Shown: one piece after another, positions 1,381 to 26,868 of the stretch | Position numbering within the stretch: position 1 is the first letter of the stretch | Layout: every line of letters begins with the position of its first letter | IMG/VR virus record: IMGVR_UViG_3300023281_002225 | Coordinates: 1 to 30,007 of that record | Reading direction: 5' to 3' (one strand) | DNA length: 30,007 bases | DNA from: a virus | Translations under genes and position numbers: made by a program | The notes under the pieces: generated by a model | Told to the model about the DNA's origin: nothing | The model's database searches: none | The model's input: the letters and a program-made list of their open reading frames with translations, nothing else

Positions 1381-1402
1381 CTAAAGATAAGTGAGGTTAT
1401 AT

Positions 1403-2491
1403 ATGGTGCTTCGATTTTTAGAGGGTTTTGATAGTTATGGAACTTCTGGAAATATAAACGCTTTATTGCAACGAAAGTGGGAAACGGCTGATCCAGAAAG
1501 TGCGGGGAATTTATCTTTAGCTACAGGTTATTCTGGAGGTTTTGCTTTAGAGGTTGCTACTAATGCTTTAGGTGTACAGCATATTTTTGGAAGCAGACCT
1601 AGCGAGATTGTTGTTGGATTTTGGTGGAAAACTAACAGTGTTTCTGGAACATCTAATGAATTTGTTCGTTTTCATGGTGATGGTATAAATCAGTTCCATA
1701 TAGGCGTTGAACAAACTGGAACTGTTTTTAGAGTTACTAGAGATGGCTCGGTTTTGGCAACAGGAACGGAAGTTATTGCAGTAGATACGTGGTATTTTTT
1801 AGAACTTAAAGGGATTCCAGCTAATTCAGGTGGAACTGCTGAATTAAGAATAAATAGGAATGTAGATATAAGTTTTTCTGGAGATACATCAATAGACAAT
1901 TCAACGACATTTTCTGCTGTTTCGTTTTTTGGAGGATTTACTAGAACTTATCAATTTGATGATATTTATATCATTGATGCTACAGGAAGTGTGAACAATG
2001 ATTACTTAGCATCTTCTTTTGGAGATATTAAAGTAAAAGCTTTGTTTCCAAATGGGGCAGGAAACTCTACAGAATTGAGTGTTGTTGGTGCTGCTAGCAA
2101 CTATTTAGCCACAGGTGTTTCTACACCTGATGATGATACTTCTTATGTAGAAAGTAGCACAACTGCTCGTGATACTTATGAAATAGAAGATTTAGATGTG
2201 TCTGGCGAAATTATTGGTGTTCAGAATTGTATTTCACATAGAAAAGACGCAATGAGTAATGAAATCATTTCATCTGTTGTAAGAACTGGTGGAACTGATT
2301 TTGTAAGCAATGCTGAATTTATGTTGGTAGATTATAAAAACACATGTGTTGTATTTGATCAAAATCCTGATACATCTTTAGATTGGACAGCATCAGACAT
2401 AAATAGTATTGAAATAGGAATTGATATTTTCAGACCAGTAGTAACTCTTCAAGGTACGGGAACAGTTACTTCTGTTGGAACTGTAACTTAG
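1403..2491 (+). CDS. Virion structural protein, lectin-like fold, paralogue 1 of 3
   Basis: This 362-residue protein is the first of three tandem paralogues. The ATG at 1403 is preferred over an upstream in-frame GTG at 1391. It follows a GTGAGG ribosome site and gives MVLRFLEGFD, matching the MVLIALEGFD start of the next copy. The N-terminal half looks like a concanavalin/LamG-type beta sandwich (WYFLELKG, a short AELRINR strand, then FDDIYIIDATGS). A second conserved module reads KVKALFPNGAGN followed by a DDDTSYVES segment. This two-part layout is known to me from phage tail-associated proteins. It could bind glycans on the host or decorate the virion, but this is inference. It is the most diverged of the three and has an extra threonine/valine-rich end. 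Confidence 0.8.
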   Translation: MVLRFLEGFDSYGTSGNINALLQRKWETADPESAGNLSLATGYSGGFALEVATNALGVQHIFGSRPSEIVVGFWWKTNSVSGTSNEFVRFHGDGINQFHIGVEQTGTVFRVTRDGSVLATGTEVIAVDTWYFLELKGIPANSGGTAELRINRNVDISFSGDTSIDNSTTFSAVSFFGGFTRTYQFDDIYIIDATGSVNNDYLASSFGDIKVKALFPNGAGNSTELSVVGAASNYLATGVSTPDDDTSYVESSTTARDTYEIEDLDVSGEIIGVQNCISHRKDAMSNEIISSVVRTGGTDFVSNAEFMLVDYKNTCVVFDQNPDTSLDWTASDINSIEIGIDIFRPVVTLQGTGTVTSVGTVT

Positions 2492-2499
2492 GAGGAAAA

Positions 2500-3549
2500 A
2501 TGGTACTAATAGCTTTAGAAGGATTTGATCATCATGGTTCTAGCGATGCTGATTTAGATGATTATCTTGGTAGAAAACATGCAAGTGCGTTTGGAACTTG
2601 GGAGGCTGTATCTGGACGGTTGGGCGGATTAGCAGCAGCTACAAATTTTACATCTGATGATATTTATGTTCAAATGAAGGATGTTAACACATTTGAAGTA
2701 ATAATTGGTTTTGCTATTAAATTTCGTGAAGTCAATGCTAACAATCCTGACACTTTGATTCATTTTTTGAATAGAACTGGAGTTTCTGTTGCTTCATTTC
2801 ACAGAGGTGCATCTGGCGATCCCCGTTTGCAGAGTGCGAACAATACCATTTATACAACTTCGGAAAAATGGAGTCCATTTCTTTGGAACTATTTTGAAAT
2901 AAGAGTTTTGTCTGGAACAAATAATTCTAATGGAGAACTTGAATTACGGATGAATGGAAAGACAATTATTGATGCAACAGGTGTTGATACGTTTCAAAGT
3001 ACAGTCAGTAGAGGTACGGCAAATATTGTTGTGGGAGGTTCTGATCATTTTGATCCAATATTTGACGACATTTATGTTTTAGACACTACAGGTTCAGTGA
3101 ACAATGATTTCTTAGGTGACATAAAAGTAGAAGCCCTTTTCCCAGACGGAGCAGGAAACACCACAAATTTTTCTGTCACTGGTGCCGCATCAAATTTTAC
3201 TGCTGTTAGTGATAATCCTGTTGATGATGATACCTCTTACATAAGTTCCTCCACCGTTAGCAATAAAGACACATACACTTATGACGATGTTTCTTTAATT
3301 ACTAGCAATGTAAAAGGATTGGTGATTCATACTTTAGGTAAAAAAGATGGAGCAGGCGATAGAGTTATAAAACCAGTTATTCGCTCTGGAACTACAGATT
3401 ATGACCAAGCTGAAATTTATTTACCTTATGGCGAGACTGATGAATATGCTTTTGATTCTCAACCAATCGATGTAGATCCTGACACAGCTATAGCATGGAC
3501 CGTATCAGGTGTAAACAGTGCTGAATTTGGAGTTAAACTAACAACATAA
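2500..3549 (+). CDS. Virion structural protein, lectin-like fold, paralogue 2 of 3
   Basis: This 349-residue protein starts MVLIALEGFDHHGSS. A strong AGGAGG site overlaps the stop of the preceding gene, so translation is probably coupled. It shares with the third copy the blocks EKWSPF.WNYFEIR, NGELELRMNGK, a DHFDPIFDDIYVLDTTGSVNN block and EALFPDGAGNTT, plus a C-terminal DDDTSY module. The N-terminal half is predicted to be a concanavalin-like beta sandwich. No glycosidase catalytic pair could be recognised, so binding rather than cleavage is more likely. The function is inferred from architecture and location. Confidence 0.8.
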   Translation: MVLIALEGFDHHGSSDADLDDYLGRKHASAFGTWEAVSGRLGGLAAATNFTSDDIYVQMKDVNTFEVIIGFAIKFREVNANNPDTLIHFLNRTGVSVASFHRGASGDPRLQSANNTIYTTSEKWSPFLWNYFEIRVLSGTNNSNGELELRMNGKTIIDATGVDTFQSTVSRGTANIVVGGSDHFDPIFDDIYVLDTTGSVNNDFLGDIKVEALFPDGAGNTTNFSVTGAASNFTAVSDNPVDDDTSYISSSTVSNKDTYTYDDVSLITSNVKGLVIHTLGKKDGAGDRVIKPVIRSGTTDYDQAEIYLPYGETDEYAFDSQPIDVDPDTAIAWTVSGVNSAEFGVKLTT

Positions 3550-3557
3550 GGAGATGT

Positions 3558-4586
3558 ATGACACTTTTATTTTTAGAAGGATTTGAACATCATGGAAGTA
3601 CTAATGCTAATTTAGACAGCACCTTGACAAGAAAATATTTCAGTCGCACTGGTGCTTGGGAAATACTTTCTGGAAGAAGTGGTGGAAATGCTGCTAGTGG
3701 AAATTTTACAAGTGATGACATTACAATTGAATTCACAACTGAAACAGAAATTATAATTGGATTTGCTATGAAATTTCGTGAAATCAATGCTAATAGTGCA
3801 GATCCTTTAGTTCGATTTTTGAATCCAAGTGGATCACATATAAGTTCATTTCATAGAGGTACATCTGGCGATCCTCGTTTAATATCCAACGATAACACTC
3901 TCTATACCAGTAGTGAAAAGTGGAGTCCATTTACTTGGAATTATTTTGAAATAAGAATTGTGGCAGGAACAGATAGTTCTAATGGCGAACTTGAACTGAT
4001 GATGAATGGCAAGCAAATTATAAATGAAACAGGAGTTGATACGCTTGCCATAACCCCAGGTGTTGCCAGAATAAATTTCTCAGGAAGTGATCACTTTGAT
4101 CCAGTTATTGATGATATTTATATCATCAATACGCAAGGTTCAGTAAACAATACTTTTTTGGGTGACGTTAAAGTAGAAGCAGTGTTTCCAGACGGAGCAG
4201 GAAACACCACAGATCTCTTACCAACAGGTGCAGCATCAAATCATGAAGCTGTTGATGATAATCCTTTTGATGATGATACTTCGTATGCGTCATCCTCTAC
4301 ATTTGAAGATAAGGACACTTATACAGTTGCTAATCTTTCTGACATCACACAAGGAATTGTTGGAGTTCAAATGCTACCTAACGCCAGAAAAGCCATAGCA
4401 ACAGGTACTAGAGCTTTGACTTCTGTAGTGAGATCTGGAACCACTGATTATGATCAAACAGAGTCAAACCTTACTACAAGTTATGATTATTACCCAGCTA
4501 TTGTAGAACTCGATCCAGATACAGGATCGGCTTGGACTGTAAGTGGATTCAATAGTGCAGAATTTGGATACAGGATAAGCGTATGA
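3558..4586 (+). CDS. Virion structural protein, lectin-like fold, paralogue 3 of 3
   Basis: This 342-residue protein follows 8 bp after the second copy, with AAGGAG ahead of the ATG. It is closer to copy 2 than to copy 1. Shared landmarks include FLEGFEHHGS, EKWSPFTWNYFEIR, NGELELMMNGKQII, DDIYIINTQGSVNN and KVEAVFPDGAGNTT. It ends with a beta-rich module (WTVSGFNSAEFGYRISV) whose last strands match the end of copy 2. Its stop overlaps the next start as ATGA, placing it in one operon with the gene at 4583. Confidence 0.8.
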   Translation: MTLLFLEGFEHHGSTNANLDSTLTRKYFSRTGAWEILSGRSGGNAASGNFTSDDITIEFTTETEIIIGFAMKFREINANSADPLVRFLNPSGSHISSFHRGTSGDPRLISNDNTLYTSSEKWSPFTWNYFEIRIVAGTDSSNGELELMMNGKQIINETGVDTLAITPGVARINFSGSDHFDPVIDDIYIINTQGSVNNTFLGDVKVEAVFPDGAGNTTDLLPTGAASNHEAVDDNPFDDDTSYASSSTFEDKDTYTVANLSDITQGIVGVQMLPNARKAIATGTRALTSVVRSGTTDYDQTESNLTTSYDYYPAIVELDPDTGSAWTVSGFNSAEFGYRISV

Positions 4587-4969
4587 CCCAACAAGTTTAT
4601 AGAGTTTATTATGAAGATAATGGACAAGTTGATATTTTTGAAATGGGTGGAATAAGTTTTTGTATTCATCAAGTAAATTTAGTTTCTTTCGATGCAGATA
4701 GTGGTGGACAAGATGTTGAAATTTCTCAACTCCCAGGCGGAATTACAGAGATAAAAATAGAACTATTAGATGATGTAGTTGGATGTAACTGGAAATGGGA
4801 TTTTTCAAGTATTGAGCCAGGAAATGAAATTGCTTTGATTTCTATCCCTACAGGCGAAAGTAATCCCACTATATTAGAAGGCAGCATTGTGAGTCAAAAT
4901 GGTAAAATTTTGACTATAGATCTGTCAGCACTTGCAGTAGGAACAACACATATTAGGTTCAACCAATAA
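4583..4969 (+). CDS. Hypothetical beta-rich protein in the structural operon
   Basis: This 128-residue protein begins within the stop of the previous gene (ATGA). I do not recognise a family. The sequence alternates hydrophobic and polar residues in short strands, contains ISQLPGGITEIKIEL and a tryptophan-containing VGCNWKWDF segment, and ends THIRFNQ. It has no signal peptide or membrane segment. Its tight coupling to the lectin-like genes suggests a small virion or assembly component. Confidence 0.65.
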   Translation: MTQQVYRVYYEDNGQVDIFEMGGISFCIHQVNLVSFDADSGGQDVEISQLPGGITEIKIELLDDVVGCNWKWDFSSIEPGNEIALISIPTGESNPTILEGSIVSQNGKILTIDLSALAVGTTHIRFNQ

Positions 4970-4984
4970 AATGACACAGTTTAC

Positions 4985-4992
4985 TCTAAATA
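4985..4992 (+). promoter_or_regulatory. Late-type promoter variant (TCTAAATA)
   Basis: TCTAAATA differs from TATAAATA at one base and ends 21 bp before the ATG at 5014. The 12-mer TTACTCTAAATA recurs exactly at 5848-5859 before another gene. The repeat and the matching spacing argue for a real element. The flanks form a small CTCT...AGAG inverted repeat. Confidence 0.5.
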
Positions 4993-5013
4993 AGAGCAAA
5001 AAGAGGATGTAAT

Positions 5014-5811
5014 ATGGTAGACACAGTACGATCACTTTCTGACTTGCAAACGTTGTTGGCAACTAATTCATCAGGTGGAATTAGTGCTCAAGATTTGAGA
5101 GATTTATTAGTTTCAACTTATTCAAGTGAAGCTCACGCTAATCTTGAAAATGGAAAAACATCTACAGATACTCCTGATGATGATTTTGATACGGGATCGC
5201 TTGATGTAAAATGGACGGTTGTTGATGGATCTTCTGGGACAGTTGGATTGCTATCAAATGCTTCATCTAATATTTACGATTTATCAACCAGACAAGGAAA
5301 TTTATTGCTTCAAACTTATGAAAGCAACAAAGTCACACTAAGACAAGATTATACGCTTCCAGATGGAAATTGTATAATTATGGCTATCAATAGTGCTGTG
5401 TGGAATGATAATGGTGTTACAAATAATGAAATACAAGTTGGCATTTCATTAAATCAATCTACAACTGAAATATTTCCAACTGATGGGTTTGCCCTGTTGC
5501 ATGATACAGTAAGCACAACTGCATCACAAATACTTGCTGCTGATGGCAATACTACTTTTGGATCTAGTGGATATGGCGTAATTTGGGGTCATACAACTTA
5601 TTTTAGAATTTGCAGAAGCGGCTCAACATATTATGGTTTTTATAGTTTTGACGGGATATCTTGGTCTGGTTGCGGCAGCACTACAAGTGGTATAGGTGCA
5701 TATGATAGAATTTGGATTTTTAACAACAGCAGCACTGGAGCTTTTAATCCAAATCCCATCGCAACAGTAAAATGGATTAGACAAGGCAGCAATGGAGTAG
5801 ATCCTTGGTAA
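5014..5811 (+). CDS. Virion structural protein with concanavalin-like C-terminal domain
   Basis: This 265-residue protein has an N-terminal module SLSDLQTLLATNSSGGIS followed by QDLRDLLVS, a small domain I recognise from many phage fibre-type proteins. A longer beta-rich domain starts near residue 55 (DDDFDTGSLDVKWTVVDG) and resembles concanavalin-like or DUF1349-type sandwiches. Aromatic strands such as TYYGFYSFDGISW follow. The start is an ATG with an AGAGG site. It has its own late-type promoter. Tail appendage or surface-binding function is inferred. Confidence 0.72.
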   Translation: MVDTVRSLSDLQTLLATNSSGGISAQDLRDLLVSTYSSEAHANLENGKTSTDTPDDDFDTGSLDVKWTVVDGSSGTVGLLSNASSNIYDLSTRQGNLLLQTYESNKVTLRQDYTLPDGNCIIMAINSAVWNDNGVTNNEIQVGISLNQSTTEIFPTDGFALLHDTVSTTASQILAADGNTTFGSSGYGVIWGHTTYFRICRSGSTYYGFYSFDGISWSGCGSTTSGIGAYDRIWIFNNSSTGAFNPNPIATVKWIRQGSNGVDPW

Positions 5812-5851
5812 TGGAGAATGATGGTAAATTTAGTAAAATGTAATAAATTAC

Positions 5852-5859
5852 TCTAAATA
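5852..5859 (+). promoter_or_regulatory. Late-type promoter variant (TCTAAATA)
   Basis: This is the second exact copy of TTACTCTAAATA, 18 bp before the ATG at 5878. It sits in an ACTCTA-AA-TAGAGT inverted repeat. An AGGAG ribosome site follows. Confidence 0.5.
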
Positions 5860-5877
5860 GAGTAGGAGATTTTAATA

Positions 5878-6306
5878 ATGACAGATATGAGCGATTACCT
5901 AGAAGGTCAATTAATTGACCACATTTTTAGGACTTCTACTTTTACTAAACCTACTACTATTGCTATTACGCTTTGTACGGCTGCAACTTTGGATTCTGAT
6001 ACTGGAGCTACCATTACAGAAGTTGCTAATAGTTTTGCATATGCTAGACAGACTCTAAACCCTCTAGACGCAAACTGGGACTCACCTACAGCCGGTGACG
6101 GTTTAACTAGCAATTTAGCCACTATTACGTTTCCTACTGCTAGCGGCGGTTCTTGGGGCATTGTGACGCATGTGGCGATTACTGATTCATCTACATATGG
6201 AGCAGGAAACCTATTATTTCATGGTGCAATAGATTCAACCGCCACTGTCAGCGATGGAGATACTTTCATATTTTCTGTTAATGACCTAAAAATTACTTTC
6301 GATTAA
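5878..6306 (+). CDS. Phage structural protein, short tail-associated family
   Basis: This 142-residue protein begins MTDMSDYLEGQLIDHIFR, then a beta-rich body with ITEVANSFAYARQTL, SWGIVTHVAITD and NLLFHGAID. This layout of a short helix, a TEV..YARQ block and a WG.VTH block matches a common uncharacterised family of small phage structural proteins. An ATG three codons later (MSDYLEG) is also possible. The same general layout is seen in the intron-bearing gene at 25132-25770, so the two may be distant paralogues. The stop overlaps the next start (TAATG). Confidence 0.68.
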   Translation: MTDMSDYLEGQLIDHIFRTSTFTKPTTIAITLCTAATLDSDTGATITEVANSFAYARQTLNPLDANWDSPTAGDGLTSNLATITFPTASGGSWGIVTHVAITDSSTYGAGNLLFHGAIDSTATVSDGDTFIFSVNDLKITFD

Positions 6307-6512
6307 TGAGCGTTCAACATAAAAGACACATTACAAAAGCCATTACATGGCGTATATTTGCCACTACAGATACATTCATAATTAGTTGGATCATTACAGG
6401 CAGCATTTATGCTGGATTGTCTATAGGATTTATTGAATTCTTTTCAAAAATGCTATTTTATTACATACATGAAAGAGCTTGGTATAAAACAAAATGGGGA
6501 ATAACTGAATAA
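6306..6512 (+). CDS. DUF2061-type small membrane protein
   Basis: This 68-residue protein carries the signature of the DUF2061 family: an N-terminal KAITWRI, two hydrophobic segments (about residues 17-35 and 37-52) and a C-terminal YYIHERAWYKTKWG. The length equals that usual for the family. It overlaps the upstream gene by one base. DUF2061 proteins are predicted inner-membrane proteins of unknown function, best known from bacteria. Its presence in a phage structural operon is unusual and could reflect acquisition from a host. Confidence 0.8.
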   Translation: MSVQHKRHITKAITWRIFATTDTFIISWIITGSIYAGLSIGFIEFFSKMLFYYIHERAWYKTKWGITE

Positions 6513-6555
6513 TTGGACTTTTTTTAACCAGTTAAACAGTTCTATAATAAGCATT

Positions 6556-7134
6556 ATGAAGGAAGAACGAGAAATAGAAGATATAGTTGGAAATCTAAAA
6601 CAAAGCGAATCTCGTAAAAAAGGCATAAACTCTGGCGATAAAGGGGATCGTGGTGAGAGAGAAATATGTGATATTTTCAATAAACACTTTATGAGACTTC
6701 TTTCTGAAAACATCAAATGGGGTCGATTTAATCGAGTTATAGGATCAGGTGCATTTGGCCATAGAGCACTTTCTGAATCAGGAAAGGAAGCTAGTATTGG
6801 GGATATTCTTTGCCCTACAGGATTTAGATTCGTTCTTGAAGCTAAATTAGGATACAACGATGCTAATATAGAATTATTTGGCATTGCAGATAAAGGGAAC
6901 GCTATATTAGATAATTTTCTAAAACAAGTTGAAGATGATGCCTCTAGATCTGAAAATAAAATGCCTATGTTATTGTGGAGAAAAGATCGCAAAAAACATA
7001 TTGCTTTTTTAAAAACAAAAAATCTTCCTAAAAGAAGATACAAATATTCTCTAAAATACAGAGATTGGACAGCTATACCTTTAACGGAATTGTTAAAAGA
7101 AGATAATGACTTTTTCTTTATTCTTTCTGACTAG
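6556..7134 (+). CDS. Predicted PD-(D/E)XK nuclease
   Basis: This 192-residue protein has the ordered motifs of the PD-(D/E)XK fold: an early acidic helix (GDRGEREI, E34), a glycine/serine loop (NRVIGSGAFG), IGDILCP (D83), LEAK (E95, K97) and a later QVEDDA helix (Q124). The arrangement resembles Holliday-junction resolvase-like and RecB-like nucleases found in phages. Substrate and role (recombination, host DNA breakdown or defence) cannot be read from the sequence. The ATG is preceded by TATAATAA at 6543-6550. The 3' end overlaps the convergent gene at 7118 by 17 bp. Confidence 0.7.
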   Translation: MKEEREIEDIVGNLKQSESRKKGINSGDKGDRGEREICDIFNKHFMRLLSENIKWGRFNRVIGSGAFGHRALSESGKEASIGDILCPTGFRFVLEAKLGYNDANIELFGIADKGNAILDNFLKQVEDDASRSENKMPMLLWRKDRKKHIAFLKTKNLPKRRYKYSLKYRDWTAIPLTELLKEDNDFFFILSD

Positions 7135-7705
7135 TTGGGATTCCAATTACAGGTTGACCAGATAATCTTTGATCATTCAGCCATAGTTTTCTATTGCATA
7201 CCGTGATTGCGGCAACCCATGCACCTTTTTGTGATTGCCCTTCTCTGAATCTCCAACCTACACGATCTTGTTCACACATAGATTCACACAGAATTCCAAT
7301 TTTATCATTGGCTAATAGCCAAGGTGGATCAGTATCACAAAATTCTTGACTACATGAAACATTTGGAAGAATCAAACAAGGATCAGTTATTATAGAAACT
7401 CCAGCTAATTCCACAGAACCATCTACAATGACTATTCCAATACCATCTAGATTTGCATCGCCACCTATGTTAAGCAAAGCATTTGCAGACAAAGATCCAA
7501 TTCCATTTAAACTTGAAATTCCACCTAATAAAAGACTTGCAGTTGCATTTATACACCCGCCAGCAGTTTTGCTAAATGCAGAACTAAATGGACATAGGCT
7601 ATATTCGCCTTGTCCTATAAGACCTTCTGCACAATAAGTCATTATTGCATCAGCAGTTAAATCCCCAATACCATCTAGATTTGCATTACCTATTACTTCT
7701 GCCAT
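7118..7705 (-). CDS. Glycine-repeat virion protein, paralogue of the 1-1314 product
   Basis: This 195-residue protein begins MAEVIGNANLDGIGDLTADA, the same repeat type as the left-edge gene. Further repeats are LLLGGISSLNGIGSLSANA and GGDANLDGIG. The second half is different. It is cysteine-rich (about residues 120-148) and ends with a short domain containing VGWRFREGQSQKGAWVAAITV. This suggests a repeat stalk carrying a different tip from the large protein, which is inference. There is no strong ribosome site close to the ATG; AAAGGAA lies about 15 bp upstream. Confidence 0.75.
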   Translation of the reverse strand: MAEVIGNANLDGIGDLTADAIMTYCAEGLIGQGEYSLCPFSSAFSKTAGGCINATASLLLGGISSLNGIGSLSANALLNIGGDANLDGIGIVIVDGSVELAGVSIITDPCLILPNVSCSQEFCDTDPPWLLANDKIGILCESMCEQDRVGWRFREGQSQKGAWVAAITVCNRKLWLNDQRLSGQPVIGIPTSQKE

Positions 7706-14772: not shown

Positions 14773-15192
14773 ATGGCAATTAAACTATATCAGCTTTATT
14801 GCGAATATTGTCATTGGAAAAGAATTACAGATGGTTCTGATATTCAAGATTTAATTGAAATTAAAAAGTCTTCTATTCAAAGAAACATTCCTAAATTAAA
14901 TCCAGCTACTAAAGAAGTTATCCCTTCAAAGTTTAAAAAACAACCTAAAAAGTTTAAATGCAAAGAATGTGGTCGTCCAGTTTCTCCTAAAAAAATAGCT
15001 GATCCACAAGCTTTAATTAATCAAAAATTAGAAGAAGAACAACGTGCAGAACGCATAAAATTGGCCGAGGTAGAAGAAGAAAGAAAACTAAAAGAAGTCA
15101 TTTCTAAAGCTGAAAAAGATTCAGAGGAACGAAGAAAACAAAATGGCAAAAAGATCAATCCGTATGATGGAAGTGAAGCAAGCTCTTCATGA
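14773..15192 (+). CDS. Zinc-ribbon protein with charged helical tail
   Basis: This 139-residue protein has two Cys-x2-Cys knuckles, YCEYCHWKR near residue 10 and KCKECGRPVS near residue 62, which should form one zinc ribbon. Residues 75-130 are a highly charged helix (EEEQRAERIKLAEVEEE). RAGGAATAAA-type spacing ahead of the ATG gives a reasonable ribosome site (GAGGAA). The ribbon may bind nucleic acid or protein. No specific family is assigned. Its 3' end overlaps the next gene by 50 bp. Confidence 0.65.
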   Translation: MAIKLYQLYCEYCHWKRITDGSDIQDLIEIKKSSIQRNIPKLNPATKEVIPSKFKKQPKKFKCKECGRPVSPKKIADPQALINQKLEEEQRAERIKLAEVEEERKLKEVISKAEKDSEERRKQNGKKINPYDGSEASSS

Positions 15193-15526
15193 TGAAAGAT
15201 TTAGAGAAACTTTACCAGAATCTCTAAAAGAAAAAGTAGAAGAATTTGTCAAAAATCCTGGTTGTGCTTGCAATGTACCTCTTTATAGAGAAATCCTTAA
15301 AAACTGTAAATCACAGTTGGAAATGTATTATCCAGGAATTGAAATTTCTGATGAAGCAGAAGAAATTAAAAGACTTGCAGAAAACAATTGGACTGTAATT
15401 AGTTGCAATATTAGAGAGTTAGAAGGCAAGCTTAAAAAACTTTCACCTGGAAGAAAACAGATAGCTGTTTCTCGTTTTCAAGACCAAGTTACGGTAGTCG
15501 TAAATGAACTAGACATTATCTATTAG
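15143..15526 (+). CDS. Hypothetical phage protein with NPGCACN motif
   Basis: This 127-residue protein overlaps the zinc-ribbon gene by 50 bp when read from 15143. A start at 15164 (MMEVKQ or MEVKQ) would reduce the overlap, but no strong ribosome site decides between them. The sequence contains KNPGCACNVPLYREI, which I have seen in hypothetical proteins of T4-like environmental phages. The end is a beta hairpin (FQDQVTVVVNELDIIY). No function can be assigned. Confidence 0.6.
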   Translation: MAKRSIRMMEVKQALHDERFRETLPESLKEKVEEFVKNPGCACNVPLYREILKNCKSQLEMYYPGIEISDEAEEIKRLAENNWTVISCNIRELEGKLKKLSPGRKQIAVSRFQDQVTVVVNELDIIY

Positions 15527-15541
15527 ATTTTTTCCTACTTC

Positions 15542-15549
15542 TATAAATA
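15542..15549 (+). promoter_or_regulatory. T4-type late promoter (TATAAATA)
   Basis: An exact TATAAATA ends 19 bp before the ATG of the PAS gene, with an AAGGAGG ribosome site in between. It is in the intergenic gap after the gene at 15143. Confidence 0.72.
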
Positions 15550-15568
15550 TACTAACAAGGAGGCATAG

Positions 15569-16105
15569 ATGAAGGACACTACTAGTTCGATTTATAATAT
15601 TGATAACCTTACAGACGCAAAGACAAAACTTGAAGAATATCAAGACATATTCAACGGATTGCCTATTGGTCTTTATAGAACAAGCATAAAAGATGGCCTA
15701 TTTTTAAAGGCAAATCCTGAACTTGCAGAAATGTTAGGGTATGAAAATGTTGACGATCTGCTCATTAATGCAAAGTCAAGTGAGTTCTATTGGAACGAAA
15801 CTGACAGAGAAAAATTTCTTAATGTGTTAGACACAATTGGCAGTATTCGCCACTATGAATTGCCTATCAAAAATGCAAATGGTAAAAAATTATGGGTGCT
15901 GATAACTGCTAGACTTAATAAAGAAAGAGGCTATTTAGAAGGCTCTTTAATGAATATAACTGAAAAGAAAGAATTAGAAGATAGGTTGGAAGAATACAAA
16001 ATGGAAGAGGCTAAACACTTATGTAAAATTAACCTCGCTGCAAAACAAAGAATACAAGAAATTGATGAAGTTCATGATGAATGTTTAGTTCATGATGTTT
16101 TATAA
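15569..16105 (+). CDS. Stand-alone PAS-domain protein
   Basis: This 178-residue protein has a PAS domain at about residues 24-132. The signs are FNGLPIGLYRTSIKDGLFLK, the helix NPELAEMLGY, LPIKNANGKKLWVLITARL, and the closing GSLMNITEKKELE. A charged helix follows to about 165, as in the linker between PAS and kinase, but there is no kinase, cyclase or DNA-binding domain. PAS domains sense ligands, redox state or light, or mediate dimerisation. Which applies here is unknown. The gene has its own exact late promoter and a strong ribosome site, so it is expected late in infection. Its 3' end overlaps the convergent glycosyltransferase by 16 bp. Confidence 0.8.
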   Translation: MKDTTSSIYNIDNLTDAKTKLEEYQDIFNGLPIGLYRTSIKDGLFLKANPELAEMLGYENVDDLLINAKSSEFYWNETDREKFLNVLDTIGSIRHYELPIKNANGKKLWVLITARLNKERGYLEGSLMNITEKKELEDRLEEYKMEEAKHLCKINLAAKQRIQEIDEVHDECLVHDVL

Positions 16106-17055
16106 TATTTTTTTTGATTCAATATACTTTCACAACTAGTTATCATCTTCTCTGGATAGTCTTTATATTTAGAAATTTCAATTGGCCAAAGATCATCATT
16201 TGATCTTTGGCCACCTAAAATTATACCATTCTCATAAATTGATTTTGCTTTTTTATATTGATCTTTGGCGTAATAGATGTCACCTAATAAACACCAGAAC
16301 TCAGCCATCAATGGATTGGCTGCAATGCAAGTCAATATTTCTCTAGAAGCTTCTCCAAAGTTTTTTAACTCTTGAACATGAAACTTGATTGAAGCAATGT
16401 AATATCTCATCATAACAGCCGATATGCCTTTTGAATTTCTACTAATGTATAATTCTGCTGCTGGTATAAATTCTTTGTATCTTTTTTTAGATAGCAGAAA
16501 AAACGCCTGATAATAATATGGTTCATTTGATATTGGTGAAGTTTTTAACCATTCTTTTAGCTTATCTTCAACATTATTTGTTTGATTCTTTCCACCATAA
16601 GAATAAAATATTAAATTATTTAATACTTTACTGATCTCTGCATCTAATGTTTCATAAATTGGATTGCGAAATTTTATATTGGCATCTTTGTGCCATAATT
16701 TAATCTCTTTTGTGATGCTTTCTCCATGAAACACTTTGCCTCCATATACATTAGGTATACCAGAATTAATAACCTTATTAATATCTTCATATCCAGCAGC
16801 TAATATTTCCCAAGGTTCAATATATAGAATCCAACCTGTTACATCTTTCAAAAGTTCGTTTTTTTCGTAACTTCTTTCATTATCAGGGTTTACGGTCTTA
16901 ATAACAGCACCACTTTTCCTGCATATAGACCGCGTTTTATCTGTTGAATTCACATCGCCAACAATAAGATTTATATCTAATGGAGATAATGAATCAAGTG
17001 TGTTTTGTAATGTTCCTTCATTGTTGTGAGTCAGAATTAAGGTTGTTAGTGACAT
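16090..17055 (-). CDS. Family 2 glycosyltransferase with TPR-like tail
   Basis: This 321-residue protein begins MSLTTLILTHNNEGTL and has the nucleotide-binding pattern VGDVNSTDKT (D34, D39) of GT-A family 2 enzymes. The usual metal-binding DxD region reads ILYIEPWEIL (residues 76-85), so the canonical aspartates are missing. Residues about 170-275 are helical with TPR character (AEFWCLLGDIYYAKDQYKKA). Such GT2 plus TPR proteins modify peptides, lipids or glycans. The target here is unknown and could be virion or host surface. It overlaps the upstream small gene by 38 bp. Confidence 0.78.
   Translation of the reverse strand: MSLTTLILTHNNEGTLQNTLDSLSPLDINLIVGDVNSTDKTRSICRKSGAVIKTVNPDNERSYEKNELLKDVTGWILYIEPWEILAAGYEDINKVINSGIPNVYGGKVFHGESITKEIKLWHKDANIKFRNPIYETLDAEISKVLNNLIFYSYGGKNQTNNVEDKLKEWLKTSPISNEPYYYQAFFLLSKKRYKEFIPAAELYISRNSKGISAVMMRYYIASIKFHVQELKNFGEASREILTCIAANPLMAEFWCLLGDIYYAKDQYKKAKSIYENGIILGGQRSNDDLWPIEISKYKDYPEKMITSCESILNQKKYYKTS
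16183..16213. repeat. Perfect 13-bp inverted repeat inside the glycosyltransferase gene
   Basis: TGGCCAAAGATCA at 16183-16195 is repeated in reverse complement at 16201-16213 with a 5-base loop. It encodes part of the segment GGQRSNDDLWPIEI. There is no T tract, so it is not a standard terminator. It could be an RNA hairpin or chance. Confidence 0.75.
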
Positions 17056-17303: not shown

Positions 17304-17867
17304 ATGGCGACAGAATATCTAAACAACAGAGTGTTTGAAAATGTAATTGCGACATTTCAAAAATCTAGAAAAGATATTGCAAAGTATGAATTAATTGTTG
17401 AAGACATGTGTGAATCAGTAGAAAGAGCAAAAGTTATAAAGACAAATCCAAAATCTGACATGTTGTTTGAAATGTTAGAAACAAGTGAAACAGCCTTTAA
17501 AACGGCAAGTGACAACTATACAGACTCTCAGAATCAGTTGGCTAACTTGTTTAACATATTAGCTGTGAATATAGTTAATTATGCTAGATTTCAAAATATT
17601 GACCCAGATGATGCTGTGCAAGAAGGCGTTTTAATCTGTTTTGAAAAAATAGATCGTTTTGATCCTAGAAAAGGCAAAGCATTTAACTATATGACAACCT
17701 GTGTTTTGAACCATTTTCGGCAATTATATAGGTCACAACGTAATTATCAAGAATTAAAAAAGAAATATCTAAATCATATTCAAATGAAAATTAACATGCA
17801 CTTAATTAAAAGCGGTAAAGATGTGTGTGTTCCTATGACAGGTATTAGAGATTGGAATAGAAACTAG
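17304..17867 (+). CDS. 55: Late transcription sigma factor, T4 gp55-like
   Basis: This 187-residue protein has nearly the length of T4 gp55 (185). The first 75 residues are helical. Residues 84-155 carry sigma region 2: LAVNIVNYARF, then DPDDAVQEGVLICFEKIDRF, DPRKGKAFNYMTTCVLNHF and RQLYRSQRNYQEL. There is no region 4, as in gp55. In T4, gp55 directs host RNA polymerase to TATAAATA late promoters with the sliding clamp gp45 and co-activator gp33. Exact TATAAATA octamers at 1356, 1373, 7762, 10475, 15542 and 23048 fit this role. Confidence 0.85.
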   Translation: MATEYLNNRVFENVIATFQKSRKDIAKYELIVEDMCESVERAKVIKTNPKSDMLFEMLETSETAFKTASDNYTDSQNQLANLFNILAVNIVNYARFQNIDPDDAVQEGVLICFEKIDRFDPRKGKAFNYMTTCVLNHFRQLYRSQRNYQELKKKYLNHIQMKINMHLIKSGKDVCVPMTGIRDWNRN

Positions 17868-25857: not shown

Positions 25858-26868
25858 ATGGAACAAAAAATGCCAATAACTAAACCATCTAAAAAAGAAT
25901 TAATCGAAGTTATGTTTGATAAAACTAACTTAGAAGCCGCAAAATACTTCAATGTGTCCAAAAGTACAATTGTTAGATGGCTTAGTTTTTATAACTTAAA
26001 TTATTATGATTTGAAATATCCTAATATTCCAAAAGAACCAAATAAAGAACAATATGATTTAATCATTAGTTGTTTGCTTGGAGATGGTACATTAGACAAA
26101 CGTGGAAGATTTAAGCTAAAACTAAAAAAAGAATCAGAAAGCTATCTTTTAGAAGTCTATAATTCTTTAAAGCCCTTTACCGTTAGTAATATTGTTTATG
26201 ATAAACAAAAATGCCCAACTAGAATAAAAGGTAAAGTAGATTATTCAGATAAAAATTGGAATGGGAAATGGACTGAATGTTGTTACTTCTATACTCCTGG
26301 ATTTTCATTTTTAAAAGAACTAAGAAAAAAATGGTATCCTAAAAATAAAAAAATTGTTCCAAAAGATTTAAGTTTAAATTTAGAAATGATTGGACACTGG
26401 TATATGCAAGATGGTTGCAATAATCAATCAAAAAAAACAATTACATTTCATACTAATTGTTTTTCTGAAAAAGAAGTTAATTTTTTGATAGATCAATTTC
26501 CTTGTGTTAAACCAGAAAAATCATTTTCTAATAATTACCCAATCATACGGTTTGGTGCAAGGAAGTATTATAATTTTATAAATTTAATTAAACCATATGT
26601 CAGTGATTGTTTTGATTATAAGATTGATACAAGCAAGTGCATTAAAACAAAAAAAGGATATGGTGCTTGTAAATTAAATATGGATAAAGCCAACAAAATA
26701 AGGGTCTTGTATGCAACTGATAAATATACTCAACAAAAATTAGGCAAAATGTTTGGGGTAAGTCAACCTTTAATAGGCAGAATAATTAATAATAAAGTTT
26801 ATAAATCTTATAAAGCAGATTTATGTTTTGGAGGTTCAGCCGATGTCATTTTTCTTCCTAATGGATAG
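25858..26868 (+). CDS. LAGLIDADG homing endonuclease next to the group I intron
   Basis: This 336-residue protein (or 332 if translation starts at the ATG at 25870, which has GGA about 8 bp upstream) has two LAGLIDADG helices. They are IISCLLGDGTL (residues 69-79, D76) and LEMIGHWYMQDGC (175-187, D185). The N-terminus (13-43) and C-terminus (277-313, AKLGKMFGVSQPLIGRI type) look like helix-turn-helix units, as in some modular homing enzymes. Such enzymes cut intron- or gene-free alleles so that the element is copied in. The gene is outside the intron and on the opposite strand. The last residues read into the convergent gene at 26836 by 33 bp. Confidence 0.87.
   Translation: MEQKMPITKPSKKELIEVMFDKTNLEAAKYFNVSKSTIVRWLSFYNLNYYDLKYPNIPKEPNKEQYDLIISCLLGDGTLDKRGRFKLKLKKESESYLLEVYNSLKPFTVSNIVYDKQKCPTRIKGKVDYSDKNWNGKWTECCYFYTPGFSFLKELRKKWYPKNKKIVPKDLSLNLEMIGHWYMQDGCNNQSKKTITFHTNCFSEKEVNFLIDQFPCVKPEKSFSNNYPIIRFGARKYYNFINLIKPYVSDCFDYKIDTSKCIKTKKGYGACKLNMDKANKIRVLYATDKYTQQKLGKMFGVSQPLIGRIINNKVYKSYKADLCFGGSADVIFLPNG

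Follow-up and report, generated by a model that had tools for sequence, protein, structure and literature searches.

Stand-alone PAS proteins are already known in bacteria, in which the short LOV proteins (PpSB1-LOV, PpSB2-LOV, PF5-LOV and SBW25-LOV) consist of a PAS fold with an N-cap and a C-terminal helix, and no output domain. To our knowledge, phage proteins that act on signal transduction in bacteria are few. The case found in the open-licence literature, VqmA of vibriophage VP882, is a complete PAS-HTH regulator, by which a phage-encoded PAS protein listens to host chemistry (PMC8284805). An overview of jumbo phages describes a divergent NAD-linked receiver (cREC) and leaves the PAS domain unmentioned (PMC7824862). 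Short phage proteins named 'PAS domain' are also found in BFVD for uncultured Caudovirales (A0A6J5KZZ3, 169 aa, and A0A6J5NY05), annotated by domain name only.

The stretch of DNA analysed herein (the window; 30,007 nt) is a viral record without close relatives among cultured phages. IMG/VR contains 61 relatives of its tail sheath, which are 47-80 % identical to it, and gene order is strongly conserved across the relatives found in this way; the sequences point to a lineage of large, uncultured T4-like/jumbo phages. The features of the locus are as follows.

15143-15526, plus strand: g15143, a conserved 127-aa protein (alignment A1; 230 relatives in viral contigs), the upstream border of the slot
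15542-15549, plus strand: T4-type late promoter TATAAATA, exact match, 19 nt before the ATG
15557-15563, plus strand: ribosome-binding site AAGGAGG, from the sequence
15569-16105, plus strand: stand-alone PAS protein of 178 aa, the slot gene (ORF, Pfam, AlphaFold2)
15632-15964, plus strand: PAS domain, residues ~22-132 (Pfam PAS_9/PAS_8, AlphaFold2 model, PDB fold matches)
15959-16096, plus strand: C-terminal helix, residues 131-176 (46 residues; AlphaFold2 model)
16019-16054, plus strand: conserved tail motif within the helix, residues 151-162, LCKINLAAKQRI (leave-one-out HMM)
16090-17055, minus strand: g16090, convergent, the downstream border of the slot (PHROG 13126, synteny)
17304-17867, plus strand: gp55-like late sigma factor (Sigma70_r2, 30.3 bits; PHROG 234 late sigma, 5e-7)

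The downstream border gene displays a weak glycosyltransferase-2-like N-terminus and TPR, both below curated Pfam cut-offs. Elsewhere in the window, three tandem paralogous genes at 1391-4586 (FLEGF...DDIYIIDATGSVNND...), probably encoding virion surface proteins, have no homologue in the loci of the 61 sheath relatives, and an ORF between late genes at 25858-26868, homing-endonuclease-like by eye (CLLGDGTLDKRG...), is missing from the relatives' loci.

The preliminary description had read a well-formed PAS domain from the sequence, and this is borne out by both Pfam and structure prediction. The 178-aa protein scores 28.8 bits for PAS_9 (cut-off 27) and 24.8 bits for PAS_8 (cut-off 21.8), and AlphaFold2, supplied with 13 aligned sequences, returns a canonical PAS fold (pLDDT 88.2, pTM 0.70); a usable model required this alignment with relatives, the single window sequence giving a poor one (pLDDT 49). 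The model consists of an N-cap helix (5-30), the PAS core (34-129) and one long C-terminal helix, with nothing more. Compared with the PDB by Foldseek it matches 325 chains at E<=1e-3, the best of which are bacterial PAS/LOV domains, and VIA-align places PpsR first (Z 15.4, 113 residues, rmsd 2.3), with a Colwellia PAS domain at Z 14.5 and the short LOV proteins at Z ~13-14 over 125-140 residues. A phmmer search of PDB sequences with the window protein yields no PAS match at E<=1, and the link to solved structures is therefore one of fold. PHROGs likewise contains no significant family for the protein. Eight residues of the PAS family are invariant in 14 sequences (P32, T38, G43, N49, L56, G57, E124 and G125). 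What the protein is and the family to which it belongs are both virtually certain.

Two familiar kinds of PAS sensor can be set aside. A LOV photoreceptor is rejected on the basis that residues 1-151 have no Cys and no GxNCRFLQ motif, the only cysteines being C152 and C172, in the tail. A FixL-type heme sensor is rejected in the same manner, as the axial His of the F-alpha helix is missing; helix 77-90 has no His, and the sole His of the PAS core, H95, lies in model strand 92-101.

With regard to expression, the exact late promoter and strong ribosome site read at the outset are both present, upstream of a gene whose phage also encodes a gp55-like sigma factor. These are the marks of a T4-type late gene, and late transcription is thus predicted; by analogy with T4 biology, gp55 would be the reader of the promoter. 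The TATAAATA octamer occurs 9 times in the window against 3.8 expected, a count reached in 2 of 100 shuffles. Across 16 slot genes of different phages the exact T4 octamer is confined to the window and is not enriched, but in 14 of the 16 TATATA or ATAAATA occurs no more than 50 nt from the start, compared with 2.2 in dinucleotide shuffles (as many in 0 of 1000). Slot genes therefore usually travel with a late-type promoter of their own.

Single-protein searches with the window PAS protein returned nothing from viral contigs or the phage collection, PAS_9 was absent from all 48 sheath-found relative records, and in most sheath-found relatives the stop codons of g15143 and g16090 abut with nothing between them. 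Together, these searches suggested a one-off insertion, a view overturned by a survey of the slot itself. A profile search of viral contigs with g15143 recovered its 230 relatives. In two scans, 84 distinct slots between g15143 and g16090 were identified, the contents of which were assigned from gap size and the ORF inside. The slot is empty in 49 of the 84; 13 harbour PAS or PAS-PAS proteins (L100, L102, L110, L111, L118, L124, L130, L132, L147, L152, L204, L228 and L249, with one identical protein in L111 and L124), three a CheY-like receiver only (L041, L133 and L187) and one a receiver-PAS fusion (L258), the others carrying different cargo. A further PAS-PAS protein, in L151, adjoins g16090 at a contig end.

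At least 12 distinct phages, all belonging to one lineage, thus have a PAS homologue at this position, on contigs as large as 532 kb (L110), 245 kb (L152) and 223 kb (L132), and some of these homologues are equally short. At least one Pfam model is above cut-off for PAS in L100, L102, L110, L111, L118, L130, L132 and L152, and for receivers in L133 and L258. When whole records are searched, PAS_9 occurs in 15 of 36 related records, and every match lies in the slot apart from one family member, a two-PAS protein that the L125/L126 phages encode at another site. A profile search with alignment A8 added no new contigs. The distance from the slot to gp55 is ~1.2 kb in the window, and gp55 is close by in nearly all loci; the PAS protein is a member of a phage family that has a fixed slot near gp55.

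Other occupants of the slot are varied. In one clade the signalling gene is replaced by ~95-aa minus-strand proteins (EEIVEIEA...ARKRC...DWRDEF; L036, L038, L040, L043, L050, L117 and others), whilst L139 (6385-7593) harbours a methyltransferase-like gene of 403 aa and L125 (~4132-7420) a 3.3-kb insert comprising one dehydrogenase-like gene and one that is sulfotransferase-like, all three named by eye. Amongst the two-PAS slot proteins, the first PAS looks LOV-like with the photoactive Cys lost, as L152 (3632-4432) and L151 both display GRNANFLR at the position of the LOV GxNCRFLQ motif.

The receiver modules score 69 bits in L041, 36.8 bits in L133 and 50.6 bits in L258, and the PAS part of the L258 fusion scores 93 bits against the window PAS. 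Three of the four slot receivers have lost the phospho-acceptor Asp, which is kept in L041 and replaced by Ser in L133 and L187 and by Asn in L258; it is present in two other phage receivers, L143 and L179. L041 and L258 have visibly similar receivers (GDEM.AV..L..GA.DY.PK), and the stand-alone form could for this reason be derived from a receiver-PAS protein or have given rise to one. Outside the slot, L143 (1486-1887; record of L006) is a canonical stand-alone receiver (72 bits) adjoining a gene that by eye resembles g6556. In L182, a histidine kinase gene (673-1842) with an ETR1_N-like N-terminus (92.8 bits, cut-off 27), HisKA and HATPase_c is overlapped by a stand-alone receiver gene (1809-2180); the pair lies at ~32.3-33.5 kb of G051:C1, the 244,986-bp phage contig of L152, on which tail genes are present.

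The preliminary description also held that the PAS domain is followed only by a helix and that the protein has no output domain. Both statements stand in part. A single helix does follow the PAS domain in the model, and Pfam gives no HisKA, HATPase_c, GGDEF or HTH match in the window protein, that is, no catalytic or DNA-binding domain; the same is true of every slot protein, in none of which is HisKA, HATPase, GGDEF, HTH or any kinase, cyclase or DNA-binding output found. The last part of the helix is, however, a conserved sequence motif, and this helical tail may be an output surface. The family pattern is roughly [LMI]xx[LIV]xxx[ILVMA]xx[KR][ILM], in which the eighth position is hydrophobic or A, and I162 is invariant in alignment A3. 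By leave-one-out HMM, 14 of 16 tails are equalled by no more than 2 of 1000 shuffles (1 of 1000 for the window tail), the exceptions being L171 (24 of 1000) and L102 (167 of 1000), a distant PAS protein that does not share the tail. The receiver-only protein L041 also carries it (11 of 3000 shuffles; a score as high in 0 of 2268 other gene tails from the loci), but in L133 (78 of 3000) and L187 (245 of 3000) the tail is not convincing, and a universal tail for all receiver-only proteins is not supported. A shared tail is accordingly well supported by sequence for the PAS family and one receiver protein, and it is quite probably functional.

The presence of a PAS or other signalling module at one address, in some cases with a common end piece, suggests that these phages tap signalling proteins of the cell. 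A role as sensor or decoy acting on host signalling, as first proposed, becomes more plausible in light of the receiver domains and the receiver-PAS fusion in the same slot. We tentatively favour the reading that the gene encodes a late, output-less adaptor, decoy or mimic of REC/PAS-type signalling proteins that acts in trans. The product would be a late-made, soluble and probably dimeric PAS adaptor, of a family built from an interchangeable module (PAS, PAS-PAS, REC or REC-PAS) and then the helical tail, such that it resembles a REC/PAS signalling protein in which the enzymatic or DNA-binding end is replaced by the tail. A search of 36 related records for a phage kinase partner gave HATPase_c in just one of them. 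Since the family lacks both an output domain and a linked kinase, and its PAS modules alternate with receivers most of which cannot be phosphorylated, the signalling modules would seem to serve for docking or dimerisation and the tail to be the working end. Action would most likely be in trans, with the PAS or REC part docking on, or sensing through, signalling proteins of the infected cell, most simply REC/PAS-type proteins of the host, and the tail altering or recruiting the partner, making it a decoy or adaptor as opposed to a complete signalling system. Against this stand the 49 of 84 slots that do without the gene, the lack of a clear tail in L133, L187 and the distant L102, the non-signalling cargo, which makes the slot partly a general insertion site, and the closeness of the slot to gp55, which would equally suit a target within the phage. 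The stronger proposition, that of a phage-specific adaptor family with one effector tail behind swappable modules, rewiring host two-component and PAS signalling by subunit mimicry, is possible but rather doubtful.

An autonomous phage sensor, in which the PAS domain binds a small ligand or reads redox or energy state and the tail directly regulates a phage machine (for example gp55-dependent late transcription or lysis timing), is a serious but somewhat unlikely alternative. It would explain why eight PAS-family residues never vary, it accords with a slot near gp55 in nearly all loci and with a late-type promoter belonging to the slot gene, and phage VqmA provides a precedent as a PAS ligand sensor (PMC8284805). 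Alternation with receivers of which most lack the phospho-acceptor speaks against any one ligand, however; convergent genes also lie between the slot gene and gp55, and many phages possess gp55 but no slot gene.

The late promoter would also suit a structural or assembly adaptor, a PAS dimer with a helix serving as a minor virion or scaffold component, as would the tail-gene surroundings in the window (the sheath, two tube-like genes and a T4_baseplate-family protein). This is nonetheless improbable, since the gene is missing in more than half of the close relatives that share these tail genes, others swap it for receiver domains, and no virion protein family matches convincingly in Pfam or PHROGs.

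Pairwise dN/dS for the PAS genes is 0.07-0.13 (NG86, pairs with usable dS), similar to or somewhat above that of neighbouring genes, which indicates strong purifying selection at the sequence level. When a tree is built from four neighbouring genes, phages with a signalling gene turn up on various deep branches, interspersed with phages whose slot is empty, a pattern that either an old gene lost many times or one gained repeatedly would produce. That the slot merely collects host-derived signalling fragments as passengers of no lasting function would fit its patchy distribution and its minus-strand, methyltransferase-like and 3.3-kb cargo, but is very unlikely for a gene with dN/dS of about 0.1 and a spread over deep branches, a conserved tail, retained promoters and a family member kept at a second site in L125/L126.

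If the adaptor reading is true, a swappable-sensor family with one tail constitutes a natural domain library plugging into bacterial two-component and PAS signalling, at one genomic site across a widespread jumbo-phage lineage, and a 178-aa gene with its own promoter offers a testable entry to the ways in which virulent phages, late in infection, read the signalling of their host or silence it. In the open-licence literature there is no description of a phage slot whose occupants switch between PAS, receiver and fused proteins and have a tail in common. Of the described systems, the BFVD proteins are also short phage PAS proteins, A0A6J5KZZ3 aligning with the window protein over 166 columns (TM 0.66, 22 % identity), although slot, tail and REC exchange are not described for them in open-licence papers. 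Bacterial CheY-like single-domain receivers and REC-PAS proteins have their domains in common with the L041 and L258 slot proteins, but most receivers of the slot are without the phospho-acceptor Asp, and none is joined to an output domain. The short LOV proteins share the stand-alone architecture and are among the nearest full-length solved structures to the window protein; they are, however, bacterial, at 15-19 % identity, and with no Cys in the window PAS core, LOV photochemistry is not expected of it. VqmA is likewise a PAS protein encoded by a phage, yet it belongs to a temperate phage and ends in an HTH DNA-binding domain, which the window protein does not possess.
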